A DNA stretch of 64,000 nucleotides from Candidatus Mnemosynella biddleae (GTDB lineage: Archaea > Halobacteriota > Archaeoglobi > Mnemosynellales > Mnemosynellaceae), in the NCBI GenBank assembly GCA_002011165.2, contig MTMI02000010.1:1-64000 (forward strand). Direction: 5' to 3'. Positions 33,910-50,809 of this stretch are shown here, in pieces. Position 1 is the stretch's first letter, and each line of letters begins with the position of its first letter. The notes beneath the pieces are model-generated. The model was not told the DNA's origin. It was given only the letters and a program-made list of their open reading frames with translations, and did no database searches. The position numbers were made by a program, and so were the translations under genes.

Positions 33910-34099
33910 GAAGCAGTACGGAATTTCTAGATGCTCTTCTATCGAACATCCTCTTCTACGCCCTCTCGCTCTTCTTCCTCTTCTCCGAAGTCTTGATTGT
34001 GGGGGGCGCATCATAAACGTCCACGCCCATCTCTTCGGCCTGTTCATCGGAGCGACAACTCCCTATCTGCTGACCCTCAGGAAAAAAGAGCTTCAGTAG
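33910..34099 (+). pseudogene. Rhomboid protease C-terminal remnant
   Basis: One frame reads FLDALLSNILFYALSLFFLF, a membrane helix, up to a G-run near 34000. After a one-base shift the next frame reads INVHAHLFGLFIGATTPYLL, which aligns with the last catalytic helix of the intact rhomboid gene at 31.4-32.2 kb. Everything upstream is lost. The end overlaps the convergent Hef-like gene. Confidence 0.65.
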
Positions 34100-36168
34100 A
34101 TCACCTCCCTCACCCTCATGCAGAGAACTCCATCCTTCCTGTAGAGCTCGCCTCTGACTCTGAGCCTCTCTCCCTTCCTCAAACCAGAAGACAGAGGAAA
34201 ATCCTCGGCCATGAGCTTCGCTCTGAAGCTGTTGTTCACTAAGAGAGTTGCTCCTCCGTGATAGATCCTCTCCACAAGCACGTCGAAAATCCCGCTCTCT
34301 GGCACAGGAATCGAAATGGTGTCCCAGGTTGGAAGATAGATCTCTCCTCTTTCAGCAAGAACCTTCACCGCCTTCTTCAGGATCTCAGCCGAGAATCCCA
34401 TCTCTCTGGCCTCTCTGAAGATCCATCCGAGAGAGATCCTTCCAACTCCTCTCTGCATCTCCCTCCTCAGGGTCTCAAGGATCCACCTCTCAGCTCTCGA
34501 AACCTCTCTCAGAAGCTCCGGATCCTGAGACTCCTTCTCTGCGAAGTCCTCCAGCGTGACCTGAAATCTTACGGGAGCGGGTCTCCTGATCTCTCTCCTC
34601 TCAGGTTCAGCACGGGAGACCTCGGGTCTCTCACCTCTCTTCAGCTGCCTGAGCTCCCTGTTGAGTTCTCTCATGATCCTCCTCATTCTTCTCGCTCTTC
34701 TCAGGCTGGAGTAGAAGTACCCCATGTCCACGGTTCTCTCCGCCGCAAGTATGATCACGCGCCCTTTCCTCTTCCTTCCCGTTCTCCCCTTCCTCTGGAT
34801 GAAGCGGATCTCAGAGGGAACGGGCTCGTAGAAGATCACGAGATCGGTTGAAGGAATATCAAGTCCCTCCTCAGCTATGCTCGTCGCAGCTATCACCCTT
34901 ATCTCTCCGCTCCTGAACCTCCTGAGAACTTCGATCTGCTCCTTCTGACTCAATCCTGAATCGCTGTTTCTCGATGCCTGACCGACGAACCTCTCGGCTC
35001 TGATTCCCCTCTCCCTCAGAGTCTCAACGATCTCATTCACCGTATCCCGGAACTGAGAGAAGATGATGATCCTCGAAGTTTCATTCGAGAGTTCCTCCTC
35101 AACGATCTTCACGAGCTCCCCGATCTTAGGATGAGACCTGCTCTTCTCCGTGAGCTCAAGAAGTCTTGAGAAGGAGAGATGAGAGGTTATCAGCTCGTAA
35201 CTCCTCTTCTCCTCATCTCCAAGCTTCAGAAGGAAGTTCCTGAGCTGCCTCATACCCTGGGTCTCGAGAAGTTCGAGAGCGTGGAAGAGACTCAAGCACG
35301 CGCTCTGCTCAACAACAGCCTGATAGACCCATCCGCTCCTCTCTCCACCGTTCATGAGCTCTCTCAGCTCCTCACCGAGAGACAGGAGATCGCTCTTCGT
35401 CACGTGCTTCGGACTCTTTTTGATGAGTCCCATATTCTTCAGAGATGAGAGACGCTCCTCGATCATGCTCCTGAGGATCCTAGAGACCTCCCGATATTCT
35501 TCAGGAAGCCTCACCCTCCTCCACTCTATCTCTATGCCTGGAATGTAGGGCTTCACATCTTCATCCTCTTCGGATCTGTAGACCACGCGCTCGATGAACA
35601 GAGACTCGCAGACGCTCCTTATTCTCTCCTTATCCCCACCGGGACTTGCGGTTAAAGCGAGAATCACGGGGAAGGAGCTCCTTCTGATGTAGTCTCTCGC
35701 AACGAATGTGTACGCGTAGTTCTTCACCGCTCTGTGAGCTTCATCGAAGATCAGGAGGGAGAACTCGGAGAGATCGAGGATTCCCCTCTCGATGTCGTTC
35801 TTCACGATTTGAGGTGTGGAGAAGAAGATCCTTCCGCCTCTCCACAGCATCCTCCTCTTTTTCGGATCCACCTTTCCGGTGATTGCAACGAGAGATCTCT
35901 CCTCAACGTTCATCATCTCAGCGAAGCTATCTCTGTGCTGGAGCACGAGAGGTCTCGTCGGAGCCATCATGAGAATCTTCATCTCCGGATTCCTCTGGAG
36001 GTAGTAGGCCGAGAGAAGAACAGCTATCACCGTCTTTCCGAGAGCGGTGGGAAGGACGACGAGAGCATTCCTGTCTATGGTCTCAATCAGAATGCTCTGC
36101 TGATAGAGCCTCGACTCAACCTTTCCGCTTTTTATCAGCGGGTGCTCCACGTAGCTCACTTCACTCAA
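34093..36168 (-). CDS. Hef/FANCM-type SF2 helicase without a nuclease domain
   Basis: The 691-residue protein has N-terminal SF2 motifs: VVLPTALGKTVIAV (Walker A, near residue 37), LIFDEAHRA, LALTASPGG, and later FIQRKGRTGRKRKG near residue 465. This is the Hef/MPH1 helicase pattern, with the usual helical insert between the motor domains. The C-terminus, about 540-691, is a helical and OB-like region, not the XPF nuclease of full Hef. It would act at stalled forks. The TTG start follows GAGGTG in the end of the upstream nuclease gene, so the two are coupled. Confidence 0.8.
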   Translation of the reverse strand: MSEVSYVEHPLIKSGKVESRLYQQSILIETIDRNALVVLPTALGKTVIAVLLSAYYLQRNPEMKILMMAPTRPLVLQHRDSFAEMMNVEERSLVAITGKVDPKKRRMLWRGGRIFFSTPQIVKNDIERGILDLSEFSLLIFDEAHRAVKNYAYTFVARDYIRRSSFPVILALTASPGGDKERIRSVCESLFIERVVYRSEEDEDVKPYIPGIEIEWRRVRLPEEYREVSRILRSMIEERLSSLKNMGLIKKSPKHVTKSDLLSLGEELRELMNGGERSGWVYQAVVEQSACLSLFHALELLETQGMRQLRNFLLKLGDEEKRSYELITSHLSFSRLLELTEKSRSHPKIGELVKIVEEELSNETSRIIIFSQFRDTVNEIVETLRERGIRAERFVGQASRNSDSGLSQKEQIEVLRRFRSGEIRVIAATSIAEEGLDIPSTDLVIFYEPVPSEIRFIQRKGRTGRKRKGRVIILAAERTVDMGYFYSSLRRARRMRRIMRELNRELRQLKRGERPEVSRAEPERREIRRPAPVRFQVTLEDFAEKESQDPELLREVSRAERWILETLRREMQRGVGRISLGWIFREAREMGFSAEILKKAVKVLAERGEIYLPTWDTISIPVPESGIFDVLVERIYHGGATLLVNNSFRAKLMAEDFPLSSGLRKGERLRVRGELYRKDGVLCMRVREVIY

Positions 36169-36709
36169 ATTTCACACCTCTCTGAAGCGCCATCTCGCAG
36201 ACTCCGCTGAAGGAACACGAGAGGCATCTCCTCTCGCTCTCGTGATTCCTCTCAATCTCACCGCTCCTCAGAACTCTCCTCATCTCACTAACGGTGGAGA
36301 GAAGCTCCTTCTTCAGCTCCTCGGTGTACTCGATCCTGTGCTGGGCTCCGTTCGAGTACACCAGAATTCCGCAGGGAACTCTCGTGCCATAGCTCTCCTC
36401 GACGAGAAGGCAGTAGGCAGCAAGCTGAAGGACGTGGCCGCGATGGGGTTCATCTGCATTTCCGCTCTTCACCTCCACGGGGATGAGCTCCCCTCTCTCA
36501 TTCCTCACGATGTAATCGGGTCTTCCCGCAATCAGATAGCGCTCCGAGAAGAGGGGCCTTGCGGGCTTATCGAGATCCGAATAGGTGATCTCCCCCTCAG
36601 GAATTCCGTATTCTCTCCTCACCCTTTCAACCGATTTCGATGTTCTCCTTGAGACGAGGAAGAGGAAAAGAGCGAGGAAAAGCAGTGACGCGATGATGAG
36701 CTCGATCAT
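36161..36709 (-). CDS. Cas4/RecB-like nuclease half with N-terminal membrane helix
   Basis: The 182-residue protein begins with a membrane helix (IELIIASLLFLALFLFLV) and then carries the RecB/Cas4 nuclease core: AGRPDYIV (Asp), LIPVEVKSG (ExK) and LQLAAY (QxxxY). It ends with three cysteines, CLSCSFSGVC, that would hold a [4Fe-4S] cluster with a fourth Cys supplied elsewhere. The missing first Cys and the motif His are found in the preceding gene, whose stop overlaps this ATG (ATGA). It probably works as a two-chain, membrane-tethered nuclease. Confidence 0.75.
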   Translation of the reverse strand: MIELIIASLLFLALFLFLVSRRTSKSVERVRREYGIPEGEITYSDLDKPARPLFSERYLIAGRPDYIVRNERGELIPVEVKSGNADEPHRGHVLQLAAYCLLVEESYGTRVPCGILVYSNGAQHRIEYTEELKKELLSTVSEMRRVLRSGEIERNHESERRCLSCSFSGVCEMALQRGVKFE

Positions 36710-36978
36710 AGCCACCACACCAGGAACAGCAGGAAGAGGGCTGCGAGGACGAGAATGAGGACGATCCTCGTCAGAGCTGCGGAGATCTCCTCTCCCTTCT
36801 GCACGTACTCCACCATTCTTCCAACTTCCCGGTGTTTTTGCGCTCCTTCATCAAGCTTCGGGGACTCCGGAGAGCACCCGCACCTCTGGAGGTACCACGC
36901 AACAGGGCAGAAGGAGTACTGAGCTATTTCCGATGCGCTGATGACGTATCTGCGATTCGGCTTTTCGCCCTCCCTCAC
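36706..36978 (-). CDS. N-terminal half of a split Cas4-like nuclease with C-terminal membrane helix
   Basis: The 90-residue protein has ISASEIAQYSFCPVAWYLQ (the first Fe-S Cys of Cas4-like proteins) and EGAQKHREVGR (the motif His) in its first 55 residues. It ends in a membrane helix, LTRIVLILVLAALFLLFLVW. It lacks the Asp, ExK and QxxxY motifs, which are in the next gene. The GTG start is inferred from the position of the conserved segment. Confidence 0.7.
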   Translation of the reverse strand: MREGEKPNRRYVISASEIAQYSFCPVAWYLQRCGCSPESPKLDEGAQKHREVGRMVEYVQKGEEISAALTRIVLILVLAALFLLFLVWWL

Positions 36979-37130: not shown

Positions 37131-37260
37131 GGTTTAAGTTGAGAAGGCGTTTTAAGGTGGCCCCTGCCTACTCCATCCCACCCCGCTTACGCGGGGCTCA
37201 TTGTTTCGGCAGGAGGGGGACAGCAGAGCTGTCCGACCTTACCCACCTTACACAACCATG
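37131..37260 (+). ncRNA. Candidate structured RNA
   Basis: Between 37154 and 37249 the strand folds into a three-way junction: outer stem AAGGTGG (37154-37160) with CCACCTT (37243-37249); one arm CCTGCC (37163-37168) with GGCAGG (37208-37213), enclosing hairpin CCCCGC-TTAC-GCGGGG; and a second arm GGACAGC-AGA-GCTGTCC (37218-37234). A weak TATA-like TTTAAG lies about 25 bases upstream. No coding sequence covers it. The large internal loop could be an H/ACA-type pocket, but no known RNA family is recognised. Confidence 0.5.
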
Positions 37261-37408: not shown

Positions 37409-37675
37409 TCACCCGTAGATATTTTCTCTCTTTCCGATTTTCAAAATCTTAATCGTCTTCTCCTCTTTCTCATACTCAAATATTATTCTGTAACCTCCAA
37501 CTCTCATCCTGTAAATCCCTTCGTAGCCTCTGAGCTTTTTAACGTCAAGATGTATCAGAGGGAAAAAAGCCAGTTTGGAGATTCTATCTTTTATCAGCTT
37601 TCTTTCATCTTCTCCCAGATCCTCGAGTTCTTTCAGCGCTTTTCTGGAGATTAATATTCTGTTCTCATAACTCAT
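37409..37675 (-). CDS. RelE/ParE-family toxin
   Basis: The 88-residue protein has the RelE-like pattern: RKALKELEDLGEDERKLIKDR, then KKLRGYEGIYRMRVGGYRIIF, which carries the basic active-site surface. The fold is an mRNA interferase or gyrase inhibitor. It overlaps the putative antitoxin gene by 11 bases. Confidence 0.85.
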   Translation of the reverse strand: MSYENRILISRKALKELEDLGEDERKLIKDRISKLAFFPLIHLDVKKLRGYEGIYRMRVGGYRIIFEYEKEEKTIKILKIGKRENIYG

Positions 37676-37871
37676 TTTCGGCTACATCCCAGTCCAGAAA
37701 TTCGTCCTCTCTTCTCTCCTCGACAGCTCTCTTCTCCCAGTCCTCAGCCTCCTCCTCCTGAATTAACTCGAGATTGACCTCGATCAGTGACTTTAGATAA
37801 TTCTCGATGTTCTCGATCTTTTTACTCAGTTTTTCCAAAGCCGCGTCCATGATTGTAAGTTTGATCCTCAT
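37665..37871 (-). CDS. Putative antitoxin of the RelE-like toxin
   Basis: The 68-residue acidic, helical protein (LEKLSKKIENIENYLKSL then EEEAEDWEKRAVEERRED) sits just upstream of the RelE-like gene and overlaps it. It has no clear DNA-binding head. The assignment rests on size, charge and gene order. An ATG seven codons downstream (37850) is an alternative start. Confidence 0.65.
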   Translation of the reverse strand: MRIKLTIMDAALEKLSKKIENIENYLKSLIEVNLELIQEEEAEDWEKRAVEERREDEFLDWDVAENEL

Positions 37872-38091: not shown

Positions 38092-39489
38092 TCACTCAAT
38101 CTTCTCAAACTCTACTCTCGGAAAACCCTCAGAGAGATCAAGAGTCATCGCATAATATTGAGTCTTCGGCTTCATCCCTCTGATCACTGGAACTCCGCAG
38201 AAATTCTTCATTTTTATGTGTACATCACTTAGATTGGATAACTCTTCCGTAAACGGAAAGCCAGGCTTGGTAACTCGAATGAGGAGACCCTTAGTGTCCT
38301 GAACAAAAACATTCCCTTCCTCAAAAACTCTTATGACCTCATCCCCATATCTTGAATAGACCGAGTCCACCCCAGTAATGTGAAGATCCTCGTAACTTCC
38401 TCCTCTCTCCCTATCAACGATCTCATAAGTTCTCTCAGCCTCTTCTATAGCCTCCTCTCTTCTCAACCTCTCTCTGCCCCATCCTCTCTCGATGAAGATA
38501 AAATTCTTCAACTCTGTCCCTGTTACAAAAAGAGCTATCCTTCTCACTATATCCTCCCTGTTGGTACCGAGAGTCGGAATATTATAAACTTTCCTCATAT
38601 TCCTCAAGAAATTCAGTGAAAATAACTCCAAGAACGGGTAGTACATTTCCCTTGTGACGTCCTTTTCAATTTCAAACAGAATGGTGCTTCCTTTCCTGAG
38701 ACCTCCTCCAAATATCTCATCCAGAGATCTTGATCCGGATGAAAAATGCTCCTCATCTGGATCCTCAAGAGGTTCGAAGAGTCTGGGCTCTTTCGGAGGT
38801 TCGTACGAGAACGGTTTGAATACACTGAATTTCCCATCCTTCAGAGTGAACAGATACTCGGGTTGGGATATCTGGATTCCCCTGAGCTTGTGAATGATGA
38901 TTCTCCTCAAAACCCCTTCATCTATAATCTCCCTCCTTAACTCGACGACTCCGTCAACGAAGTAATCTGCTCTCCCTCTCTCACTTCTTTCGACTACAAG
39001 GACAAGCTTGAAGTCAAACTCATCACTCATCTCAAGAAGGTCCTTTAGAATGTCTCTCTCGACATACTCTTCAATGGCTTCGAGAGAGTCAATAATAACA
39101 AGGGAGTTACTCTTATTTCTAAGGAGGAATACAAGCTCCTGGAGAAAGCTGGGTTTATCTTCATATTTCATCCAGAGAATCCTAGAGGATTTCTCATCTC
39201 TCAAGTCTGAAGCAAGTTTACGAATTCTTGCATCAATTATAATTGAACTCCCGTGAACATCAATGACGTCCTTCTCATCAAAGATCTCTCTCAGAAATGG
39301 ATAAGTCTCAAAGAGATTCTTGGCTGAGATCCTAGTTGAGATGTAAAAAGAGTTCCTCAGCTCCTCCGCAATTCTCAGTGCTAGAAGGGTCTTCCCACTC
39401 CCGGGCTCACCCCTTATAAGAAGGGATGCTCTGGGTCTTTTCAGAAATTCGGCGATAGAAGGACAACACCACAAATTTGGGCTACTCAA
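38092..39489 (-). CDS. KaiC/GvpD-like ATPase, paralogue A
   Basis: About 465 residues form two RecA-like halves. The first has an intact Walker A, GEPGSGKTLLAL, and the Walker B strand LVIIDSLEAI. In the second the P-loop position reads STILFEIEKDVTREMYY, so the glycines, Lys and Thr are lost and the half is probably structural. The C-terminus VPVIRGMKPKTQYYAM matches the paralogue at 44.2-45.6 kb almost exactly. I choose the TTG 39489, which follows GGAGGGGG; a TTG at 39525 is the alternative. The biological role is unknown. Confidence 0.7.
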   Translation of the reverse strand: MSSPNLWCCPSIAEFLKRPRASLLIRGEPGSGKTLLALRIAEELRNSFYISTRISAKNLFETYPFLREIFDEKDVIDVHGSSIIIDARIRKLASDLRDEKSSRILWMKYEDKPSFLQELVFLLRNKSNSLVIIDSLEAIEEYVERDILKDLLEMSDEFDFKLVLVVERSERGRADYFVDGVVELRREIIDEGVLRRIIIHKLRGIQISQPEYLFTLKDGKFSVFKPFSYEPPKEPRLFEPLEDPDEEHFSSGSRSLDEIFGGGLRKGSTILFEIEKDVTREMYYPFLELFSLNFLRNMRKVYNIPTLGTNREDIVRRIALFVTGTELKNFIFIERGWGRERLRREEAIEEAERTYEIVDRERGGSYEDLHITGVDSVYSRYGDEVIRVFEEGNVFVQDTKGLLIRVTKPGFPFTEELSNLSDVHIKMKNFCGVPVIRGMKPKTQYYAMTLDLSEGFPRVEFEKIE

Positions 39490-39538
39490 TCTCACCCCCT
39501 CCCCCAAGTTTTTCGCATAAATCAAATCCCAAAATAAA

Positions 39539-39796
39539 TTATTGATCCTTCATTATTAAAAAAGTTGAACCAGAGTTATCAATATAGAGTAGAGATTGAC
39601 ACTCTCCACGACTGAAGTCGGGAGATTCTGGGTTTGTCAGCTTATGCTTCATCCTACCCAGTTCGGGCTGTGTCAAAGCAGCCCCTGCCATGGACATATA
39701 GCCAAAGGCTCGTTTCAAAATGTTTAAAGTCCCGTTATAATCTGCGTTTAATTCAACTCCGCATTTTGGACAAACAAATCTCCCGTTGTGTCTCAA
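39539..39796 (-). pseudogene. TnpB (IS605-type) C-terminal remnant with right-end hairpin
   Basis: The frame keeps the last part of the TnpB zinc ribbon (FVCPKCGVELNADYNGTLNIL) and the typical C-terminus NPESPDFSRGE, then runs into flanking DNA. The segment at 39602-39625 forms the hairpin of the IS right end (CGAC-TGAA-GTCG with CTCC/GGAG flanks). The rest of tnpB and tnpA are absent. It belongs to a different subgroup from the remnant at 16.9 kb. Confidence 0.8.
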
Positions 39797-40142
39797 ACCT
39801 TGGAATCAGATATACTTTGTTTCTTGAGTGTTGATAGCTGTTCACCTATCAACCTTGTGCTGTTGACATATTTAAACTTATCAACAACCCACCCACCTCT
39901 CCTAATTCATCCCATGGTTCAAACCATAAGCTTTCTTAGCGACATTCTGTAAAATTGCACAATCCTTCAAATTCTCAAACTTAAGAGGTTTTTACGGCTT
40001 AAGATGGATCGATGAGGGATATCTTAGCTGCTTAACAAAAACGAGTTCTTGCCGGCTCAGGGGATCAAACGGCAATGGTCGAGAGAACTCACACCCCCTT
40101 CTTTTTTCAGTTTTATATAGCCTCTCCTCGGAAATTCTCCTG
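39797..40142. promoter_or_regulatory. Gap with leaderless promoter of the HerA-like gene
   Basis: Most of the 346 bases hold nothing I can identify, apart from a short TTGCCG/CGGCAA hairpin near 40050. At the right end TTTATATAG (40112-40119) lies about 27 bases before the ATG 40143, the spacing expected for a leaderless archaeal transcript. The downstream plus-strand block probably starts here. Confidence 0.55.
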
Positions 40143-41393
40143 ATGGACGCCCTTCTCCTGAAACTGAAGCACCGAGAGCTCGGATCAGACCCTCCGAGAT
40201 ATCAGCCAAGAGATCCACCGAGATACGAGTTGCTCGAAAAGAAGAGGGTCATCAGAGTAGGGAGAAAGATCCGCGGAGGAGAGGGAGCAGTTGAAATAGG
40301 GTACATCAGCTCGCCGTTCAAGCCCTACATCAGAAAGCTCTACCTCAACCCGGAGAGGAGGTCTCTCGGAGAGGGGAAGGTGACTCTCGTGGTTGCACCG
40401 AAGGGAGTCGGGAAGACGAACCTCACGAGGCTCTACACTCAGGCGTTCTACAGAACAACTAGGAAGATGCCAATAGTGGTCTTCCAAGAGAAGCGTGGTG
40501 ATCTGGATTTCACGAGAAAGGAGGATCCGGAGAAGCTGATGAGCATGGGAATAGAGCCGATAAAGCTTCCCGAGGACTGCCAGAAGTTCCTGATTCCAGG
40601 AGAGAACTACAGGATTCCTCTCGCTGAAATCGAGTACTCTGAGCTCATGGAGTACATAGGGAAGAGGATTGGATCCTCACAGGGAGACAGGATCATTCAG
40701 AGGGTCTGGTACGACAGGAAAGGGAGGAACAGACATAGAACTCTGGAGGAGCTCGCCGAAGCCTGTGAGGAAGTCATCGAAACAATGGAGGAGAGGGAGG
40801 ATGCCAACATTTCAATCGTTAGAACCTCGATCAACAGATTCCTCGACCTCATAGAACTCGACAGGCTGATTGAAAGCTCCAGAGAGCTTAGCTTCAGGGA
40901 GATCATAGATGAGGAGAAGATCAACATCGTGGACCTCAGCAGGATAGGAGACGACGAGGAGAGACGCTTTGTGGTCTCCGCAACTCTCAGGATGCTAGAG
41001 AGGAACTACCACGAGACTCCGTGCTTCGTCGCTCTCACGGAGGCTCACGTCTACGCTCCTGTAGCTGGCAATCCTGCTTCAGCAAAGGTGATCAACAGGA
41101 TAGTCACGGTTCTTGCCCGCAGCTACGGCTGGAATGTCTTTCTCGAAACACAGTCTCCTCAGAACCTCAATCCGAGGGTCGTTGAGAACGTCGATGAGGT
41201 CTTCATTTTCGGCTTTACGTCGAAGAAGAAAAGGGAGGCTCTCATCAGATCGCTTCAGATGAAGCTTGAGGACGTTGCAGATCTCTTTTACTACGTCTGT
41301 AAGGACATCGGGAAGGGAGAAGGGCTCTACGCAACGATAAACGATCAGAGCACCCCGTACTTCGTTGTTACGTATCTCAGCCCCGTGGGCTGA
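40143..41393 (+). CDS. HerA/FtsK-superfamily ATPase of the tRNA-Phe element
   Basis: The 416-residue protein has Walker A VVAPKGVGKTNLTRL near residue 83 and a late acidic strand CFVALTEAHVYAP near residue 300, resembling the EEAH Walker B-like segment of HerA/VirB4-type translocases. IVDLSRIGDDEERRFV before it also fits. It begins a plus-strand block of unrecognised genes. Roles as a DNA packaging or transfer motor are the usual ones for such genes in archaeal elements, but neither conjugation nor capsid genes are recognised nearby. Confidence 0.7.
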   Translation: MDALLLKLKHRELGSDPPRYQPRDPPRYELLEKKRVIRVGRKIRGGEGAVEIGYISSPFKPYIRKLYLNPERRSLGEGKVTLVVAPKGVGKTNLTRLYTQAFYRTTRKMPIVVFQEKRGDLDFTRKEDPEKLMSMGIEPIKLPEDCQKFLIPGENYRIPLAEIEYSELMEYIGKRIGSSQGDRIIQRVWYDRKGRNRHRTLEELAEACEEVIETMEEREDANISIVRTSINRFLDLIELDRLIESSRELSFREIIDEEKINIVDLSRIGDDEERRFVVSATLRMLERNYHETPCFVALTEAHVYAPVAGNPASAKVINRIVTVLARSYGWNVFLETQSPQNLNPRVVENVDEVFIFGFTSKKKREALIRSLQMKLEDVADLFYYVCKDIGKGEGLYATINDQSTPYFVVTYLSPVG

Positions 41394-41426
41394 TTTTGGG
41401 TGAGACCGGTAAAGGAGGTGTGAGAC

Positions 41427-41543
41427 TTGGTATTTGGAGAGAAGAAGGTTAAAAGAATAAGAGAACTTCTCGAGAAAGGTGCGAGTTTACGCGGGAAAGA
41501 GCGGGTTTGCAAGTGGAAGATAAAGCACAACAAAGAGGTGTGA
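41427..41543 (+). CDS. Very small basic protein
   Basis: A 38-residue frame starts at TTG after AGGAGGTGTGAGA and is rich in Lys and Arg (KKVKRIRELLEKGASLRGK). The excellent ribosome site and the same TTG-plus-GAGGTGTGAGA signal used by the next gene support it as real. The function is unknown. Confidence 0.5.
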   Translation: MVFGEKKVKRIRELLEKGASLRGKERVCKWKIKHNKEV

Positions 41544-41546
41544 GAG

Positions 41547-41900
41547 TTGCCAAGGAAAAGAGGTAAGGGATGGCATGCAACGAAGAAAGAGGATCCCAGA
41601 AGAGGGGCCGTGGCTCTGAAGGGAGTTGAGGCGAGGAGATTGAAGAGGGTCAAACCAAAGAAGGAAAGGACCACAATCGTCCTGAAAAACAGAGCATCAT
41701 TCGAGGGTCATCTCTACAGGGTCTATGCTAGAGAGGGTTCCACCGTCAGAACGATTTTTCCGAGAGCAGAGAGACACCCGAAATTTGCAAGCGCTCCCTT
41801 CGGCAAGAAGTTCAGGGTGAGGTGGAAGGGGAAGGAGTATGAAGCCGTTAAAGAGGCGCGCTGGCAGGAAAACGGTGTGAGAGTTCCCTGTTTGGTCTGA
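41547..41900 (+). CDS. Small basic hypothetical protein
   Basis: The 117-residue protein, with TTG start after GAGGTGTGAGAG, is strongly basic and begins PRKRGKGWHATKK. The second half looks beta-rich (YRVYAREGSTVRTIFP). It could bind nucleic acid or be a virion or chromatin-like protein. I recognise no family. Confidence 0.55.
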   Translation: MPRKRGKGWHATKKEDPRRGAVALKGVEARRLKRVKPKKERTTIVLKNRASFEGHLYRVYAREGSTVRTIFPRAERHPKFASAPFGKKFRVRWKGKEYEAVKEARWQENGVRVPCLV

Positions 41901-41926
41901 TACGTTACAAAGGAGGCGGAGAAGAG

Positions 41927-43012
41927 ATGAGAAGATGGAATGCGGGAAAGAGAGGAAGAGGGTGGTGGGGAGAGAGCAGAAGACACAGCTTGGCTGCAAA
42001 GAAAGGATGGAGAAAGAGAGTCGCAAAAATGCCGAGAGTTCCGATGAAGACGATTGAAGCTGCTGAAGCCCTGAGACCGAAAAGAGCGAGAGTGGTGGAC
42101 AGGGCTAAAAGAGCTAAAGTGGTCCTAGATCCAGATGATCCGAGAGTGAACTTCTGGTTGAAGAGGCCTTACGAACTCGACGTTGAGGGCATAGATACTC
42201 CGGTGGTTGCGAAAGGGAGAGATCAACCTGAAAAAAATTTTGAAAAACAACGTGAGCTCTCGGTGAAGTTGAAGGAAAAAATCGTGGATCTGTTCTGGGA
42301 AGGAGGCAGAACCCGAAAGCACAATTGGAAGTTGAAACAAATAAAGATGGAGTTCTACGAAAAGCCGAAGCCTGCAACGGTCTTCAACTTGACGCTCGAA
42401 AACGACTTCGTCCTCGGTGGCGGCAGGTACATCCACGTGAGGGCGAATCCGGAGAGTTATGCAATTTTCGAGCTGAGAGATGCTAAGGGTAACGTCTTGG
42501 GAGCACTGGACTACAGGTGTAACAGCGGTGAAAAACTGTTAGAACTCCTCGAGAAGAAGGTTCTCGAGGGAGGATTCTTCCGCGATCTCATTGTGAAGCA
42601 GCATGCGTGGATGATCAAAGGAGAGCACAGGGATGAGGAGATCGAAAAGCTGAGAGAACAGCTCAAGGAGTGGGGGAGTAGAAGCGAGGAAAAGAGTGTG
42701 AAAGGATGGAGTGTACCACGAACGAAGTTTAACGAATGGAAGGGCTACTTCAGGAGATATTTCTTTGACTTGCACGGAGAACAACTGTTCTGGTATTCTA
42801 CTGCAAGACACCGCGAGTACATAGACCTGTACAATTGGAGTGATGAAGGAATTCTAATCAGGAAATCTGACATTGAGAAGTATGGATGGGACAGAATTGG
42901 GAAATTCCTCGAAGAGACGGCGAGAGAAGAGTACAAGCAATATACAGACTACCTCCTGAAATTCCTCAAAAAGGATACAGAGAGATTGTGGGGAAACATC
43001 ATACAGTGGTAA
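41927..43012 (+). CDS. Hypothetical protein with basic N-terminus
   Basis: The 361-residue protein starts after GGAGGCGGAGAAGAG and has a Trp/Arg-rich head (MRRWNAGKRGRGWWGESRRH). A mid-region at about 145-190 looks beta-stranded, and the C-terminus is aromatic-rich and helical. No catalytic motif is recognised. It ends at a TAA that is in the same frame as the peptidase gene that follows, with 28 open codons between them. Confidence 0.6.
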   Translation: MRRWNAGKRGRGWWGESRRHSLAAKKGWRKRVAKMPRVPMKTIEAAEALRPKRARVVDRAKRAKVVLDPDDPRVNFWLKRPYELDVEGIDTPVVAKGRDQPEKNFEKQRELSVKLKEKIVDLFWEGGRTRKHNWKLKQIKMEFYEKPKPATVFNLTLENDFVLGGGRYIHVRANPESYAIFELRDAKGNVLGALDYRCNSGEKLLELLEKKVLEGGFFRDLIVKQHAWMIKGEHRDEEIEKLREQLKEWGSRSEEKSVKGWSVPRTKFNEWKGYFRRYFFDLHGEQLFWYSTARHREYIDLYNWSDEGILIRKSDIEKYGWDRIGKFLEETAREEYKQYTDYLLKFLKKDTERLWGNIIQW

Positions 43013-43096
43013 ACAAATAGAAGGAGCTCTGCTGAAAGAGAGAACCTGAAGGGGAAGATAGAAAAGCTGATCTCCTCGATTTATCCTAAGGCGAAA

Positions 43097-44191
43097 GTGG
43101 AGACGATTGAGACCCCCTATGGATCCGCGAAAGCGTTCATGATCTCAATTGACGAGGATCTGAACATTTTCGACGGCATCGCGGTTACGAACAAGGCGAT
43201 TTACGAGAAGTACAGGATGAGGTCTCTCACCGGCTACAACATCAGGTGGGCGATCTATCCTGCGAGCGAGAGGCAGATCCTGATAAAAGACTTCAGGGCG
43301 AACAGGGAGATCAAAGCGTCACTCGATGATCTCGAAAAGATCCTGAAAGATCTCAGGTTCCTGGAATCGGGGTTTCGCAATCAGGCAGGATCCAGAGAGG
43401 TTTTTGAGCTTCCTTACATCAGAGATGCTGTGAAAAAGGCTGAAAAAGAGGGGTTGAGTGTCTCGCCTCTTCCGGGAAAGAGCGTGGAGTACAGAGGAGT
43501 TAAGGTCCCGCTGAGGTGGAAGATCGGGGAGCACGTCTACGAGTTCGTGGAGAGGGAGGCGAAGCCCAGAGGACGGAAAAAGCTCCTCTACGGTGATAAA
43601 AAGATCAGGGAGAAGTGGGTCGTCTCCAAGCATGACGGGAAGACAGTCTCAGGAAAGATAGGCGACGGAGAGATCATGCCTACGATTGACGTTGCGAACC
43701 TCATCCTCTTCGGGATCCATGCGGAGAAGAGGAGCAGAGTTAGAAAGAGCCTTGAAAAGCTGAAGACCGATGACTCCTGGAAGAGGATTGCGGAGAGATA
43801 CTACGGAGAGTACTCGAGAAAGCTCGGAATCAGAGGAATTCCGCTGAAGTTCAAAAGGGGATACACCAGATCTGGAGGCATCACGATCTTCGTGAAAGGA
43901 GAGCCCAGAGAAGTTAGAATTTCGGAGGACTTCTTCAGCAATTTCTTCGCGGTTGACGGGAGGAGGGCTGAGGAGGTCCTGAAGTTCACGATAGCCCATG
44001 AGCTCGCCCACATCCATCTGGAGCACGGGAAGAAGAAGTGGCCGAGATTCTTCATAGAGGAGGAGGCCGACAAGCTTGCTGAGAAGATAAGCGGGGTCTC
44101 GAAAGAGGAGAAAGAAAGACTCACCTTGGAGCTGGCGAAGAAAGTGAACGAGGTCGCGGGGGAGGAGGTGTTTGCTGCCATCGCCGAGTGA
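43097..44191 (+). CDS. Zinc metallopeptidase-like protein of the element (HELAH)
   Basis: The C-terminal 90 residues carry FTIAHELAHIHLEHG and a downstream acidic FFIEEEADKLAEKI, the zinc site and glutamate ligand of ImmA/IrrE-like or related minimal peptidases. The N-terminal 250 residues are unrecognised. ImmA-like peptidases cleave repressors to induce mobile elements, which fits the location. The GTG at 43097 lacks a clear ribosome site. The frame stays open upstream with plausible protein sequence but no ATG, GTG or TTG, so a CTG near 43046 may be used. Confidence 0.65.
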   Translation: METIETPYGSAKAFMISIDEDLNIFDGIAVTNKAIYEKYRMRSLTGYNIRWAIYPASERQILIKDFRANREIKASLDDLEKILKDLRFLESGFRNQAGSREVFELPYIRDAVKKAEKEGLSVSPLPGKSVEYRGVKVPLRWKIGEHVYEFVEREAKPRGRKKLLYGDKKIREKWVVSKHDGKTVSGKIGDGEIMPTIDVANLILFGIHAEKRSRVRKSLEKLKTDDSWKRIAERYYGEYSRKLGIRGIPLKFKRGYTRSGGITIFVKGEPREVRISEDFFSNFFAVDGRRAEEVLKFTIAHELAHIHLEHGKKKWPRFFIEEEADKLAEKISGVSKEEKERLTLELAKKVNEVAGEEVFAAIAE

Positions 44192-44248: not shown

Positions 44249-45622
44249 TCACTCAATCTTCTCAAACTGCACCCGGGGATAGCCTCTCGAGGTGTCCACA
44301 ATCATCGCATAATACTGGGTCTTGGGCTTCAATCCTTTAATCACAGGAACTCCGCATACGTTCTCCATCTTTATGTGAATGTCACAGAAATTTGATATCT
44401 CTTCCACAAGTGGAAATCCCGGTTTTGTTATGAGTATACCAAGACCTTTCGTATCTTTTATGTACTTTTCACCTTCCTCCACTGCTGTAAGCATGGCATC
44501 TCTGTACCTCGAGTGCACAGCCTCCGCATCCACAAGAGTTAATTCTTCCAGTTCTCCCTTTCTCACTTCACTGGCAATTTCGTAAGCTTTTTTTGCTTCT
44601 TGCAACGCCTCTTCATCTCTAAGATGTTCCATCGCCCATTCTTTTTCAACAAAAATCAAGTTCTTCAGCTCACTCTCACTTACGAAAGGTTTGGTCTCGT
44701 TTATAATTCTATCTACCTCAGTACTGAGAGTTGGGATCACGTACACCTTTCTCCCGTTTCTCAGGAAATTCAGAGCAAATGTCTGAAGAAATCTGTAATA
44801 CATCTCTCTTGTCACGCCCTCTCCAACATCTAAAATAATCGTAGTCCCTTTCCTGAATCCTCCATCAAATATCTCATCAAGAGAGGCTGAACCAGAGGAG
44901 AAGCGCTGAGCATCTGGATCTTCAATAGGCTCAAAGAGCTCCGGCTTTTCTGGACTCTTGTACGAAAAGGGTTTAAAAACTCTAAATCTCCCGTTTTTGA
45001 GGGTGAAGAGATAAGTGGGCTGCTTTATCTCAACTCCTCTGAGCTTGTGGATTAACATCCATCTCAGAATGGCCTCATCGACCATCTCCTTTCTAAGCTC
45101 AACAACCCCATCGGAAAGGAAATCCACTTCTGTGATATCGGTCCTCTCTCCGATGAGGATCGTCTTCATATCAAGTTCTCTGGACAACTCCACAAGATCT
45201 TCCACTATAGAGCTCTTCACTACTCTTTCAACGGCCTGAACGGAATCTATGATTATTTTTGGTAATTCCATATCCTTAAGAATTGAAATTATGTTCCTCA
45301 AAAAAGAGGGTTTGTCTCCGTATTTCATCGAGATGACAATTGAATCAACATCACTGAGGACTTGGTACCCACTCTCTCTTGTAACGTCAATTATGAAGTT
45401 TCCTGGTATCCTTCCCTTTATCCATGGATAGGTGGAGTAAAGAATCTCATGGGAGATTCCTATGGAAGCATAAAATGCACTTCCCTTCATCAGCTGAACG
45501 AGCTCGAGTGAGAGAAGAGTTTTTCCGCTTCCAGGATTGCCTTTAATGAGAAGGGTTGCACCATAAGGTTTCTCGAGAAACTCAAGAATTTCATCCGGAA
45601 TCAGAACCTCTGAGTTAGTCAT
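44249..45622 (-). CDS. KaiC/GvpD-like ATPase, paralogue B
   Basis: The 457-residue protein has the same architecture as paralogue A: Walker A GNPGSGKTLLSL near residue 30, Walker B IIIDSVQAV, and a second half whose P-loop is degenerate (TTIILDVGEGVTREMYY). The C-terminal 40 residues are nearly identical to A. The two copies flank the HerA-led block on the opposite strand. It is followed by a 185-base gap and the Orc1/Cdc6 gene. Confidence 0.75.
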   Translation of the reverse strand: MTNSEVLIPDEILEFLEKPYGATLLIKGNPGSGKTLLSLELVQLMKGSAFYASIGISHEILYSTYPWIKGRIPGNFIIDVTRESGYQVLSDVDSIVISMKYGDKPSFLRNIISILKDMELPKIIIDSVQAVERVVKSSIVEDLVELSRELDMKTILIGERTDITEVDFLSDGVVELRKEMVDEAILRWMLIHKLRGVEIKQPTYLFTLKNGRFRVFKPFSYKSPEKPELFEPIEDPDAQRFSSGSASLDEIFDGGFRKGTTIILDVGEGVTREMYYRFLQTFALNFLRNGRKVYVIPTLSTEVDRIINETKPFVSESELKNLIFVEKEWAMEHLRDEEALQEAKKAYEIASEVRKGELEELTLVDAEAVHSRYRDAMLTAVEEGEKYIKDTKGLGILITKPGFPLVEEISNFCDIHIKMENVCGVPVIKGLKPKTQYYAMIVDTSRGYPRVQFEKIE

Positions 45623-45806: not shown

Positions 45807-46916
45807 TCACCAGCACTCCTTCAAAGCCTTCTCCATAAGCTCCCTTTCGTAGCGCCTGTAGATGTATCTCGTTCTCCCTCTCCCCTTCCTTCCGAAGACC
45901 ACGTCGATGAACCTCAGGCGCTCGAGCTTGTCGATTATCTCGTAGAATCTCTCATAATAGAGCCCGACCTCAGCCCTCATTATTGCGTAGACCTCTCCGG
46001 TTGTGATCTCATCTGTTTCGAGCGAGTAGATGATTTTGAGCGCCTCCCTTTCATCGGAGTTCAGAGCTGAGATGCTCTTGGCCAGGAAGACCTTTGCACC
46101 TCCTTCGTACACTCTCTCAACGTCTTCAGCTTCTATCCTCCTCTTCGCCCTCCTCTCCGCTTCAATTCCGGCTGCTCTCAGCAGGTAGAGACCGAACCTT
46201 ATGTCACCGGTTCTTGAGGTGAGGTCCACCACGCTTTCAAACGCCTCATCGCTCAGCACTCCATTTTGGAATCCGTGTCTCACCCTCCACTCGAGGATAT
46301 CTCTAATCTCATTTCTGCTGTACGGTGGAAAGTGCACCTCCGAGAAGTGAAACGCGGATCCAACGAGCGGATCGAGTTTTGAGATGAAGTCCATCTCGGT
46401 TGCGATGAGGATCGTTCCGATCCTTACACCGTGCTCATCTCCGCTTTTGATTATCACCTTCATGATCTCGTTCAGCGCCTCTTGATCGAGAAAGTTAACG
46501 TCGTCTAGAACTGCGATTAGAGTTTGATCTCTTCTCATAAGTTCACCGCAGACCTCAGAGAAGAGCTTCCACAGCGGAAGACCTTTCTGCGGAGCCATCT
46601 TTCCGCAGACGATCTCGTAGATCCTTGAGAGAATGTTGTACGCTGTTCTCATCACGGGACACCTGATGTAGGCCACGAGAACTCCCTCGAACTCAGAGAG
46701 CATGTTCAGCACGTATCTCACGCTGCTGGTTTTTCCTGTGGAGGGAGGACCAATGCAAAGAATATCGACCGGACGGAACCCCTTCGTTGCCGGTTTTAGA
46801 CTGAAAGCTAAAGAACTCACCTGCTGCTCCCTGTGGAGGATTGCATCAGGAAGGTACTCCGTGTCGAACACGGATTCATTTCTGAAGAGTGTCTCATCCC
46901 TCCAGAGAACCTCCAT
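45807..46916 (-). CDS. Orc1/Cdc6-family replication initiator of the element
   Basis: The AAA+ protein of about 370 residues has Walker A GPPSTGKTSSVRY near residue 60 and Walker B LIAVLDDVNFLDQEAL near 140. The sensor regions are IGTILIATEMDF and RTGDIRFGLYLLRAAG, and the C-terminal winged helix is about 280-365. This is the Orc1/Cdc6 layout, with the usual DEAD replaced by DDVN. It should initiate replication of the element. I start at ATG 46916 after GAGGGGGAG; it overlaps the integrase gene by 23 bases. Confidence 0.9.
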   Translation of the reverse strand: MEVLWRDETLFRNESVFDTEYLPDAILHREQQVSSLAFSLKPATKGFRPVDILCIGPPSTGKTSSVRYVLNMLSEFEGVLVAYIRCPVMRTAYNILSRIYEIVCGKMAPQKGLPLWKLFSEVCGELMRRDQTLIAVLDDVNFLDQEALNEIMKVIIKSGDEHGVRIGTILIATEMDFISKLDPLVGSAFHFSEVHFPPYSRNEIRDILEWRVRHGFQNGVLSDEAFESVVDLTSRTGDIRFGLYLLRAAGIEAERRAKRRIEAEDVERVYEGGAKVFLAKSISALNSDEREALKIIYSLETDEITTGEVYAIMRAEVGLYYERFYEIIDKLERLRFIDVVFGRKGRGRTRYIYRRYERELMEKALKECW

Positions 46917-48108
46917 CCCGTAACTCCCCCTCAATTCTCTCCTCAGCTATTTTCTTAAGTTCCTCGATTTCCCTCCACCTATCCGCGATGAGTTTGATGA
47001 ACTCCGGTCTCGAAAGTATCTCGAGGAGTTTCTTCTCCTCTTCTTCCCATCTCCTGATTTCGTGCGATGCCTCGCTCGTCAGAGGAAGGCCGCAATTCGA
47101 GCAGAACCTAGAATCTCCAGGGTTTATGAAGCTGCATCTTACACATTTTCTTACTTCGAGATCTCTCTCGCTCTCCTTCTTCAGCCCGTGCATCTCGAGG
47201 ATGGCGTTCTCTACATCTTTATCCGTGAGGTGGAGATAGACCTTCACCATTCTGCTCCCGGGAACCCAGCCCATGTACTTCGCTCCAATTGATTCCGTTA
47301 TCTCACCGAGGATCCTCGTCGCTCTGGTATGCCTGAAGAGGTGCGGATAGATTCTTTTCTTTATTCCAGCTCTCTTTGCAATCTTCTTGAGCTGTATCTG
47401 GAAGTCCTTGTACTGCATTGGAGCGGTGCGGTTCTTCCCTGTGAGTCTTATCCACAGAGGAGCTTCTGGATCCTCTTTAAGAGGGTGATCGGAGAGCCAC
47501 ATGCTGAGGAACTTCGTGGAGTAGACAATCCTGAGTCTTCTTTTGATGGTTTTCGATTTCGGAAGCCACACCACAGCTCCGAATTCATCGAAAGAGACAT
47601 CCTTAACTCTCATGCTTGCGATCTCACCAATTCTGGCACCAGTCTCGTATAGCAGTGAAATGAAGGCTCTATCTCTGGAATTCAGGCATGCGTTTAGCAT
47701 CTTCCTGAACTCATCCTCGGTTATGAGATCGTGTGGAGATACCTTTGTCTCCACACTTCCTATTGTAAACCAGTTCACGAGATCATCTCTGTTGAACCAC
47801 CTGAAGAACCTCTTTAGCGTCTTCTTCACCTCAAAGACAACGCTGTCTGAGAACTCTCCTCTGTTAACGAGCTCCTGATAGTGGACTATGACCTTTCGTA
47901 CATCTTCTTTCGTGAACTCTCTGAAATCCTTTTTCACGACATCCAGAATCCTCCTGAGGTAGTGTACGTAGCTTCTGACCCTGAGCTCAGAGATTCCCTG
48001 AGCGATGAGATCTTCCGAGAAGTTCCTCACAATCTCGTAGTGTTCTGGATACTTCTTCCGGAAGTTCTCGAGAACTCTGCTCAACTTTTGAGATGGATAG
48101 ATGTCCAT
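46894..48108 (-). CDS. Tyrosine recombinase (XerC/D-like integrase) with C-terminal zinc ribbon
   Basis: The 404-residue protein has an N-terminal SAM-like DNA-binding domain (about 1-115) and a catalytic domain with ETGARIGEIASMRVKDV, HLFRHTRATRIL, WVPGSRMVKVYLHLTD (Tyr nucleophile at YLHL). It adds a zinc ribbon, CVRCSFINPGDSRFCSNCG, near residue 335. It lies 79 bases from the 3' end of tRNA-Phe, so it most likely integrates there. The start is the ATG 48108 after GAGGTGATT. Confidence 0.9.
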   Translation of the reverse strand: MDIYPSQKLSRVLENFRKKYPEHYEIVRNFSEDLIAQGISELRVRSYVHYLRRILDVVKKDFREFTKEDVRKVIVHYQELVNRGEFSDSVVFEVKKTLKRFFRWFNRDDLVNWFTIGSVETKVSPHDLITEDEFRKMLNACLNSRDRAFISLLYETGARIGEIASMRVKDVSFDEFGAVVWLPKSKTIKRRLRIVYSTKFLSMWLSDHPLKEDPEAPLWIRLTGKNRTAPMQYKDFQIQLKKIAKRAGIKKRIYPHLFRHTRATRILGEITESIGAKYMGWVPGSRMVKVYLHLTDKDVENAILEMHGLKKESERDLEVRKCVRCSFINPGDSRFCSNCGLPLTSEASHEIRRWEEEEKKLLEILSRPEFIKLIADRWREIEELKKIAEERIEGELRDGGSLEG

Positions 48109-48186
48109 ACTAAAAATCACCTCGGGAAAGAATAAAACAGGAGACGCTAATTCGAGAGTTGTAAGGAACTGAAAATGAATAATTCA

Positions 48187-48260
48187 TGCCCTGGCCCGGA
48201 TTTGAACCGGGGACAATCGGATCTTCAGTCCGACGCTCTCCCTGACTGAGCTACCAGGGC
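48187..48260 (-). tRNA. tRNA-Phe(GAA), probable integration site
   Basis: The 74-base sequence folds with acceptor stem GCCCTGG/CCAGGGC and discriminator A, anticodon loop CTGAAGA (anticodon GAA) and T arm CCCGG-TTCAAAT-CCGGG. No CCA is encoded. Its 3' end faces the integrase gene. I could not find, by eye, the matching attachment repeat to the left. Confidence 0.95.
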
Positions 48261-48306
48261 TCAAATTTCTATACTGAGTCACCTTTATTAAAAGTTTTCT
48301 CAACTT

Positions 48307-48642
48307 TCATCTCCGCAAAAAGAAGTTGACTAAAAAAGAGGGAATGTTCAGAATCTTGGGAAAATAACTTTCCAGTTTTATTACTTTTGGAATATCCAAA
48401 AATTCTAGGTGAGACTTTGTTTCACTCTTTCTTTTCTCCTCTTCCAGAAAAAATCTCCTCTCTCGCTCTCCATCTCTTTTTCCCTGCTCATAATATATCA
48501 TCACATCAACGTTAAGCTCTCTGCCCTTCCTTTTCAACTTCTCCAGCTCTTTAAGAACCCAGCCAGTCTCCATATGCTTATAGTATCCTACGCTGAAACC
48601 CAGCTGATATGCTTTCTCCTTCAATCGCTCTTGAGGGTCCAT
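48307..48642 (-). CDS. Small hypothetical protein at the end of the archaellum-adjacent operon
   Basis: The 111-residue protein is charged and helical (EKAYQLGFSVGYYKHMETGW, then many Glu/Arg/Lys). It overlaps the KaiC-like gene by 22 bases and is the last of four genes divergent from flaB. I recognise no motif. Confidence 0.6.
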   Translation of the reverse strand: MDPQERLKEKAYQLGFSVGYYKHMETGWVLKELEKLKRKGRELNVDVMIYYEQGKRDGERERRFFLEEEKRKSETKSHLEFLDIPKVIKLESYFPKILNIPSFLVNFFLRR

Positions 48643-49358
48643 TCGAGCTCATCTCCAACTCTCAAACCTCTGGAAGTTATCTGGAGAGCCCTCATGTTAT
48701 TATCGTGTTTGGTTCCGCGCATCTTCATAATTTGAATTGCTCTGAACATTTTGTTGTTTTGCATGAAACTGTGGAAGAAGATTACGCTATGAGCGAAAAA
48801 TTGCTCTATGGAATATCTCCCTGGATCCAGCATCTCCGAAATTATTATGCCCGTACAATTCAGAGAGCTCAGATTCCGAATAAATCTTGCTATTTCTCTG
48901 AGCTCTTCTTTTATAACTCCTGAAAACTTGATGAGGGAAATTGAATCTATGACGTATCTGCTTGCATTAGTCCTTTTAATCGCTCTCTTTAATTCAAAAA
49001 ACAAAGTAGCAGGAGTCATTGAATAAACCTCTTCTTTCCTTTCTTCTGCCCAAAGATCTGAAGCATAACTCAAATAATCTTCGAAATCCAAAAAAATTAA
49101 TTTTTCTTCTTCTACAAGCTTTTTAATCTGTGGAAACATTCGAGAAGCATCTACAATGACGTTGGATTTAGCGTCTGTAAGCGAAAAATAAACCCCGTTT
49201 TCACCATTCATCGCTCCATCGACAAGAAACTGAATTGCAAAAGTTGTCTTTCCACTTCCCGGAGGACCGAGAATGAGGTGTGCCCTGTTCTTGGGCAAAC
49301 CACCCTCAATCAACTCATCTAACCCGGGAACTCCTGTCGGAACACAATCTTTTCTCAA
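48621..49358 (-). CDS. Single-domain KaiC/RAD55-like ATPase
   Basis: The protein of about 245 residues has GVPGLDELIEGGLP, Walker A LGPPGSGKTTFAI near residue 38 and Walker B RYVIDSISLIKF near residue 142. It is the size of ArlH/FlaH and of KaiC-like regulators. I prefer the TTG 49358 after AAGGAGG. Being in the operon divergent from the archaellum genes, it may regulate motility or act in signalling. Confidence 0.75.
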   Translation of the reverse strand: MRKDCVPTGVPGLDELIEGGLPKNRAHLILGPPGSGKTTFAIQFLVDGAMNGENGVYFSLTDAKSNVIVDASRMFPQIKKLVEEEKLIFLDFEDYLSYASDLWAEERKEEVYSMTPATLFFELKRAIKRTNASRYVIDSISLIKFSGVIKEELREIARFIRNLSSLNCTGIIISEMLDPGRYSIEQFFAHSVIFFHSFMQNNKMFRAIQIMKMRGTKHDNNMRALQITSRGLRVGDELEWTLKSD

Positions 49359-49371
49359 ATTCAGCCCCTCC

Positions 49372-50454
49372 TTAACCACCCTTATAAGCTACTATTATTC
49401 CATCTTCCCTAAAATCATCTTCGACCGTTAAATTTGCTTCTGTTAAGAGATTCTCGATTTCTTCATAGCTGTATGGCTTTACAAAACTCGGAATCAAAGA
49501 ATCAATAAAATCGTAAAGAGGCTCAGTAGAGAAAAGTTTCGTAAAGATTATTAGTTTCCCATCTTTTCTCAGGCCTCTGTTTGCGTTGTTAAAAACCCTT
49601 AGAGGGTTCTGAAGAAATGGCATAGTCAGAGAAAGAACCATCACATCGTATTTATCCTTGAAGAGAAGAATTGACTCGATATTCTCTTTTCGCACTTTTG
49701 CCCAATGAACCCTGTTAGATTCTATTTTCTTCTTACAGATTTCCACCATGTTTTTGGAATTATCAAGACCGACTGCTTTTCCCCTCGGTCCAACAATTTT
49801 TGCATAATGGATGAGAGAGGAGGTGCCACATCCTAAATCGAGAACGTAATCTCCTGAGCTCAAATTTGCAACATTGCTGAGAATTTCTCTGGTCATATTG
49901 AACCACTCATTCTCGAGCCATATACTCCAAAGATCTGCATCCTTATTGAAATCCACTGCCGCCATGGGATGTCTCTCATCCAAAAGAGCATATGGAAACG
50001 CTCTAAGCATTGCGGTTATAAAACTCACAAGATCATCAGTAACTTTATCAAGAACGAGGTCGTTTTTATTGAGTTCAAGTTTTATCCCATTTCTCAAATA
50101 AAACTCCTCTCCATCTCTTTCGAGAATTCCATATCTCTCCATGGTTTTGAGATACAAATAAACCAATTTTCTGTTCCTGTATCCATAGTTTGAGGCTATC
50201 GATTCTGCAGTTGTGTAACCTTCAGTTATACCGCTAAAGATATTTGTAACAACACCCATCTGAATTAAACTTCCAAGACATATGTTCCTCGCTTTTATTA
50301 AAGACTCTCTGATTCTTCTTGTAGAAACTGGAGTTGGAATAATTTCCTCCTGAAATTCTTCTCTCGAGATTGTTTTCAGCACCTCAATTAGTTTTCTGTT
50401 GTTCTCTACAATCTCTTTGAGTAACAAAAGTTCTTCATTCACTCTTCCTTCCAT
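49372..50454 (-). CDS. SAM-dependent methyltransferase with N-terminal winged-helix domain
   Basis: The 360-residue protein has a winged-helix-like N-terminus (TTAESIASNYGYRNRKLVYLY, then LEKDGEEFYL-type strand; about 60-125) and a class I methyltransferase core with the SAM motif VLDLGCGTSSLIHYAK near residue 207 and DVMVLSLTM (motif IV). The layout resembles small-molecule O-methyltransferases. The substrate is unknown. It is coupled to a winged-helix regulator upstream and a KaiC-like ATPase downstream. Confidence 0.8.
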   Translation of the reverse strand: MEGRVNEELLLLKEIVENNRKLIEVLKTISREEFQEEIIPTPVSTRRIRESLIKARNICLGSLIQMGVVTNIFSGITEGYTTAESIASNYGYRNRKLVYLYLKTMERYGILERDGEEFYLRNGIKLELNKNDLVLDKVTDDLVSFITAMLRAFPYALLDERHPMAAVDFNKDADLWSIWLENEWFNMTREILSNVANLSSGDYVLDLGCGTSSLIHYAKIVGPRGKAVGLDNSKNMVEICKKKIESNRVHWAKVRKENIESILLFKDKYDVMVLSLTMPFLQNPLRVFNNANRGLRKDGKLIIFTKLFSTEPLYDFIDSLIPSFVKPYSYEEIENLLTEANLTVEDDFREDGIIVAYKGG

Positions 50455-50458
50455 TTCC

Positions 50459-50809
50459 TCACCTTAAGTAAACCTTATTATAACCGGTGTTCTTCACGTA
50501 CATCTTCAGGAATTCTACTGTTTTCTTTCCATATTCTGAGAGTCGATAGTATTTAACGCCCTCCATCTCTATCACATCTACGAGTCCCATTTCAACGAGA
50601 GACGAGGAACCATTATAGCGATCCCCCATGCCTCTTAGAGCTCCAATGACGTTAGACGCATCTATCCCGGTATTTCTTGCTATTTCAGCAGGATAACTTG
50701 CATTCGGATAAATTTCATAAAGATAGAAGAGTGTTGTTGTTCTTACAGTACTCTTTTTAAGTGATCTAAGAACATGAGGGTCATATTGCAGAAATGAAGA
50801 CTTCATCAT
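50459..50809 (-). CDS. Winged-helix regulator divergent from the archaellum operon
   Basis: The 116-residue protein is a winged helix: LYEIYPNASYPAEIARNTGI, recognition helix ASNVIGALRGMGDRY and wing VEMEGVKYYRLSEYG-like strands. It lies 181 bases from flaB on the opposite strand. An EarA-like role in archaellum transcription is suggested by the position only. Confidence 0.7.
   Translation of the reverse strand: MMKSSFLQYDPHVLRSLKKSTVRTTTLFYLYEIYPNASYPAEIARNTGIDASNVIGALRGMGDRYNGSSSLVEMGLVDVIEMEGVKYYRLSEYGKKTVEFLKMYVKNTGYNKVYLR

Follow-up and report, generated by a model that had tools for sequence, protein, structure and literature searches.

The block studied here lies in the window, a 64,000-nucleotide stretch from a heat-loving archaeon of the class Archaeoglobi, and consists of five ORFs on the forward strand: a HerA-core ATPase, basic proteins of 38 and 117 aa, a 361-aa protein, and a putative zinc peptidase (Table 1). 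All five had been proposed in a preliminary description of this DNA, and they are present at the positions listed and longer than chance gives; when the bases of the block were shuffled 200 times, the longest stop-free run averaged 158 codons and reached at most 304, compared with 416, 361, and 364 for the real ORFs. Charge counts bear out the two small basic proteins described there, as well as the basic head of the 361-aa protein (net +16 over residues 1–60). The 38-aa and 117-aa ORFs each start with TTG behind a GGTG-type ribosome site. A leaderless promoter had also been claimed, and the spacing fits, as the octamer TTTATATA ends 23 bases 5′ of the HerA ATG. Because the octamer occurs three times in the 64 kb against an expectation of 1.5, its identification as the leaderless archaeal promoter of the HerA gene is graded as plausible only.

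Table 1. Features of the window discussed in the text.
Feature	Position	Strand	Basis or remark
Short tyrosine-recombinase-like gene	21132..21737	-	
Genes reading as a type I restriction-modification cluster	21958..30251		Adjoin the recombinase-like gene
Hef-type helicase, foreign-looking second copy	34093..36168	-	Pfam; GC 0.53 island
Hef-type helicase, then Cas4-like nuclease and small membrane ORF	34093..36978	-	GC 0.53
DUF3800-X RNA	37155..37248	-	Rfam, 67.4 bits vs cut-off 38.2
ParE-type toxin and small upstream ORF	37409..37871	-	
GvpD/KaiC-like ATPase, left of HerA block	38092..39525	-	Low GC, multi-copy host family
TnpB C-terminal remnant, IS200/IS605-type	39539..39796	-	Just left of HerA promoter
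TATA-box-like octamer TTTATATA	40112..40119	+	Sequence, motif frequency
HerA-core ATPase, 416 aa	40143..41393	+	DUF87, homologues, alignment
Basic ORF, 38 aa, net +8	41427..41544	+	TTG start, GGAGGTG upstream; orphan
Basic protein, 117 aa, net +23	41547..41900	+	Conserved HerA partner
361-aa protein, basic N-terminus	41927..43012	+	Orphan
HExxH zincin, 364 aa, M78/IrrE- or SprT-like	43097..44191	+	Motif, weak family matches
GvpD/KaiC-like ATPase, right of block	44249..45622	-	52% identical to left copy
Orc1/Cdc6, element-type, second copy	45807..46934	-	ORC1-type above NCBIfam cut-off
Tyrosine integrase with C-terminal zinc ribbon	46894..48120	-	Phage_integrase E 2.8e-22
tRNA-Phe(GAA)	48187..48260	-	Presumed integration site
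KaiC-like ATPase and methyltransferase	48281..50490		Between tRNA-Phe and EarA-like gene

The assignment of the first ORF to the HerA-like ATPases holds, with a DUF87 match at E 1.5e-11 (45.3 bits against a Pfam cut-off of 23.2). Its Walker A (VVAPKGVGKTN) and acidic Walker B (TEAH), both conserved, are those of the HerA central domain, and in an alignment with five relatives the Walker A, TE-type Walker B, and ETQSP motifs are invariant. These relatives (genomes G056, G003, G013, G039, and G007; loci L030–L034) carry full-length homologues at 41%–49% identity and represent five of the 58 other genomes of the class Archaeoglobi, or six of 59 with the window included. A 393-genome sample of the phylum yielded the same six and no additional full-length homologue. 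The window protein shares its ATPase core with the archaeal HerA (DUF87) DNA-translocating ATPases, but differs from them in being confined to mobile-type loci, in having a basic-protein partner, and in lacking both features of the canonical HerA–NurA repair helicase. It aligns to residues 131–489 of chromosomal HerA (profile columns 41–44 start at residues 131–134) and is without the ~90 N-terminal residues that form the HAS-barrel region of the cellular protein, and no match to NurA was found among the neighboring genes scanned.

Profile comparison gives 97% probability over 325–341 columns against the chromosomal HerA of the same genus and is marginal against viral packaging ATPases (E 1.8e-4 for SNJ1, from a small set; >0.05 for the others). 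The HerA core is thus nearer to cellular HerA than to any viral packaging ATPase tested, which makes a DNA-processing role possible. Matches to other families are of several kinds. A PHROG annotated as terminase large subunit is hit weakly by all six HerA proteins (best E 2.5e-6). For the window protein, CedB (E 3e-7) and CedD (E 1.8e-4) are among the top NCBIfam hits, and PADLOC reports mad8 (E 3.5e-14). The CedB score of 29.5 against a cut-off of 700 marks that similarity as superfamily-level only, and such similarities do not by themselves indicate packaging.

Counterparts of the 117-aa protein were found by tblastn 3′ of HerA in L034, L031, and L030, at 54%–59% identity over 81–92 aa. In G007 and G003 they follow HerA immediately, in G056 they lie 1.5 kb downstream of it, and the TTG-start layout is kept in L031 and L034. 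A profile search detected the protein in four of the 59 class genomes, HerA carriers every one; the hypergeometric chance that all four would belong to the six genomes with HerA is 3e-5, a value that ignores relatedness. Since the 117-aa protein is found solely in HerA carriers, and at or shortly 3′ of HerA, the two form a pair that is inherited together within a family of mobile elements. In L032 and L033 its place is taken by non-homologous basic proteins of 115–126 aa, and the conserved unit of the gene block is thus HerA plus a small basic protein. AvPV1 gp07, considered as a homologue of the basic proteins in L032 and L033, was unsupported on comparison.

HerA is the final gene of a syntenic block in all five relatives. 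The genes preceding it encode large secreted proteins that contain Ig-like or glycine-zipper stretches (the L033 contig ends before these), an S8 subtilase anchored in the membrane, and further proteins of roughly 200, 117, 299, and 180 aa; by hydropathy, the membrane proteins have one to four spans. No remnant of this upstream membrane/secreted module is present in the window island, and the 299-aa protein, for which the AlphaFold model (pLDDT 45.3) was too poor for use, is missing from the whole window genome. A tyrosine integrase lies near HerA in four of the five relatives, or at five of the six loci counting the window. Two unrelated types are involved: L031, L032, and L030 have an integrase of the window's family, and L033 has an unrelated, AvPV1-like archaeal phage integrase (none was found within the 21 kb fetched for L034). 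In G003 (L031), the 16-bp ATGCCGAGGGGGGGAT stands at the 3′ end of tRNA-Met and recurs 29.4 kb away; the element bounded by these two copies also encodes PCNA, an SprT-like peptidase, and a second recombinase-like gene. The restricted distribution of HerA (6/59) and of the 117-aa protein (4/59), together with the integrases near five of six HerA loci, supports a mobile-element origin of the block, which we consider well supported on these comparative grounds. A conserved chromosomal context, the contrary observation named in the preliminary description, was looked for and not found. A further 29.4-kb element lies at tRNA-Ser in the 1,860,815-bp single-contig genome G026 (L100/L109; C1, about 817,030–846,400); this span encodes an S8 protease and a different DUF87-like ATPase and has a probable 15-bp att repeat.

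No relative of the 361-aa protein was found among the class genomes and the fetched loci or in viral contigs, phages, and plasmids, and the structure prediction proposed for this protein gave a model too poor for use (pLDDT 49.7), with which Foldseek returned nothing at E <0.001. The putative zinc peptidase carries the motif FTIAHELAH...EEEADKLA, in which HELAH and EEEADKLA fit the M78/IrrE pattern of HExxH plus downstream EAxxxA. Family scores are weak (M78 E 0.0036, 17.6 bits against a Pfam cut-off of 22; SprT E 0.007), so that its assignment as an HExxH zincin is weakly supported. Residues 13–88, within the first ~90, resemble a domain of methylase-like proteins, and no counterpart is present at the other HerA loci. 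PADLOC also matches the peptidase to CapP (E 2.2e-4). Taken with the mad8 match of HerA and the restriction-modification-like cluster at 22–30 kb, this would suit a defense or DNA-processing cassette on a genomic island, in which HerA acts with a CapP/IrrE-like peptidase. We regard this as highly improbable, as the HerA homologues accompany secreted/membrane modules, an S8 protease, and integrases, and no recognized defense genes; moreover, the 117-aa partner has no defense match in PADLOC, and the peptidase is missing from the other HerA loci.

To the right of the block, the Orc1/Cdc6, integrase, and tRNA gene that the preliminary description had noted nearby are all confirmed. The Orc1/Cdc6 is 53%–60% identical to full-length Cdc6 proteins beside integrases at other loci, and a chromosomal Orc1-like gene is present in the same genome (L115:16671-17918). 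The integrase is 49%–65% identical to integrases of other elements and 39% identical to that of L030. The same gene pair adjoins tRNA-Met, tRNA-Ser, tRNA-His, and tRNA-Cys in other genomes of the class. The pair at tRNA-Phe, a tyrosine integrase beside the tRNA 3′ end with an Orc1/Cdc6 as in tRNA-targeted elements of this class, is part of an integration backbone common among Archaeoglobi. G058, a genome of the same genus, has no integrase next to tRNA-Phe. A clean empty site could not be reconstructed from it, since some of its left flank is found at another place in G000. A direct repeat of the tRNA 3′ end, expected as the second att site, was found in neither the window nor the genome, and the ends of the window element are hence unproven. 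GC content is 0.38–0.42 in the flanks, 0.49–0.53 over much of 34–48 kb, and 0.49–0.51 in the HerA block. The left GvpD/KaiC-like ATPase is probably not a core part of the element. The second Hef-type helicase, 43% identical to the chromosomal Hef at L115:13450-15687, lies in a GC-rich island and is possibly the left part of the element.

Orc1/Cdc6 with an integrase is typical of archaeal integrative plasmids. The window could accordingly hold an integrated plasmid or conjugation-like element whose HerA, a relative of CedB/VirB4, would work in DNA transfer or partition, as the CedB and CedD matches and the membrane proteins of the relatives might suggest. We consider this unlikely. The similarity to the archaeal DNA-import ATPases is far under the equivalog cut-offs; hydropathy reveals no large multi-span channel, Ced-like or other, in the window block or in the relatives; and the large secreted proteins and S8 protease of the relatives are unlike T4SS genes. 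The combination of a VirB4/CedB-type ATPase and a multi-span channel that characterizes a conjugative or Ced system is therefore not seen here, and the transfer module of the preliminary description remains unproven.

Archaeoglobi have one described virus family and a sphaerolipovirus-like provirus (PMC10919331, PMC4158269). The described family, Thalassapleoviridae (AvPV1, ThalV2, and GacPV1), shares the host class, and the window integrase is 32%–33% identical to those of GacPV1 and ThalV2. However, neither the window block nor the HerA loci encode a homologue of VP3, VP4, ORF6, or the NTPase, so that the VP4-like fusogen, VP3-like membrane protein, and family NTPase that define Thalassapleoviridae and Pleolipoviridae are lacking. 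Proteins of the three viruses gave no match above 15% probability to the HerA-block profiles; a high score to single-sequence gp08 was discounted, as it reflects a short low-complexity stretch. Sphaerolipoviridae, Simuloviridae, Turriviridae, and ArcVen-P3, which is integrated at a tRNA gene, use HerA/FtsK-superfamily packaging ATPases (PMC4158269, PMC5332951). Compared with ArcVen-P3 and the tailless icosahedral viruses, the window ATPase shows marginal similarity and no capsid homologue accompanies it: searches with the capsid proteins of SH1, SNJ1, P23-77, STIV, and PRD1, a comparison at the sequence level only, found no match, and at that level the jelly-roll capsid beside a packaging ATPase that typifies Halopanivirales and Belfryvirales is missing. 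By sequence, no capsid, fusogen, or spike was found in the window block, nor was a conjugation channel seen there. The HerA-element family has no match in the IMG/VR or phage records searched, and pattern scans of viral contigs with the HerA, 361-aa, peptidase, 299-aa, 117-aa, and Cdc6 proteins (single proteins and alignments) found no relatives, although these scans require short near-exact motifs and are weak negatives.

These comparisons bear on the possibility that the window holds a complete, active virus of a new family, whose structural set would consist of the 361-aa protein, the basic proteins, and the peptidase in place of the relatives' membrane module. All ORFs of the block are intact, the HerA motifs are conserved, the block reads as a single operon that has a promoter and SD/TTG signals of its own, and the terminase match described above would be in keeping with packaging. 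Nevertheless, we judge a complete virus quite unlikely: hydropathy predicts no membrane span in any block protein, the 361-aa model is poor and gives no significant fold match, viral contigs, phages, and plasmids hold no match, and there is no attR. The preliminary description had seen here the structural or transfer module of a new archaeal virus or plasmid family. Its mobile-element part stands; its structural part finds no support in the window, where the secreted/membrane genes that precede HerA elsewhere are absent. The family does look new, being distinct from Thalassapleoviridae and unmatched in the viral records searched.

With moderate confidence we read the block as the motor end of an integrated tRNA-Phe element, a reduced or defective member of an uncharacterized family of Archaeoglobi elements. 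Because the membrane/secreted module and a recognizable second att are lacking, this copy is best taken as reduced or defective, or else as a satellite. It is plausible that the full relatives are viruses, given their large secreted proteins, protease, and DNA motor, and given that enveloped viruses infect this host class, but no capsid or fusogen was identified in them and the comparison with Thalassapleoviridae was negative. Gene content, conservation of the HerA–basic protein pair, its restriction to Archaeoglobi among the genomes searched, the integrase association, and the absence of the upstream module are observed; every biochemical step of the mechanism that we propose is inferred. The tyrosine integrase would insert and excise the element at the tRNA 3′ end, and the element's own Orc1/Cdc6 would fire its origin. 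The HerA-core protein may form a ring that pumps the element's double-stranded DNA, with the 117-aa protein binding DNA or coupling it to the ring. In the full relatives this ring might load an enveloped particle with DNA, or push the DNA through the membrane assembly whose genes lie just upstream; the window copy, without that module, would no longer disperse or would borrow the module of a helper. The zinc peptidase would most likely cleave a regulator or a DNA-bound protein.

A bolder proposal, which we hold very unlikely, is that elements with HerA and a basic protein form a new family of enveloped archaeal viruses with a HerA-derived DNA-loading ring, and that the window copy is their helper-dependent satellite. 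Just as speculatively, such a satellite would have kept nothing but its integrase, its replication initiator, the motor, and the partner that binds DNA, and particles of the helper would carry it. The HerA–117 pair and the conserved module preceding HerA mark a second, undescribed, tRNA-integrating lineage in Archaeoglobi, and the pair offers a concrete case for testing how a HerA-type ring came to be a mobile-element DNA pump.

The surroundings of the block hold several further features (Table 1). The TnpB remnant is possibly a scar from loss of the upstream module. GvpD/KaiC-like ATPases are multi-copy in the genus; those in L097, L098, and L099 are no more than ~1.2 kb from tRNA genes, and contig ends cut several of the copies. 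Stretches like the DUF3800-X RNA recur in several other Archaeoglobi genomes, and a gene related to the ParE-type toxin lies beside Cdc6 in the G003 element. The short recombinase-like gene is 42% identical to one inside that 29.4-kb element and 87% identical to one in G058, a genome in which tRNA-Phe and the EarA-like gene are ~60 bp apart.
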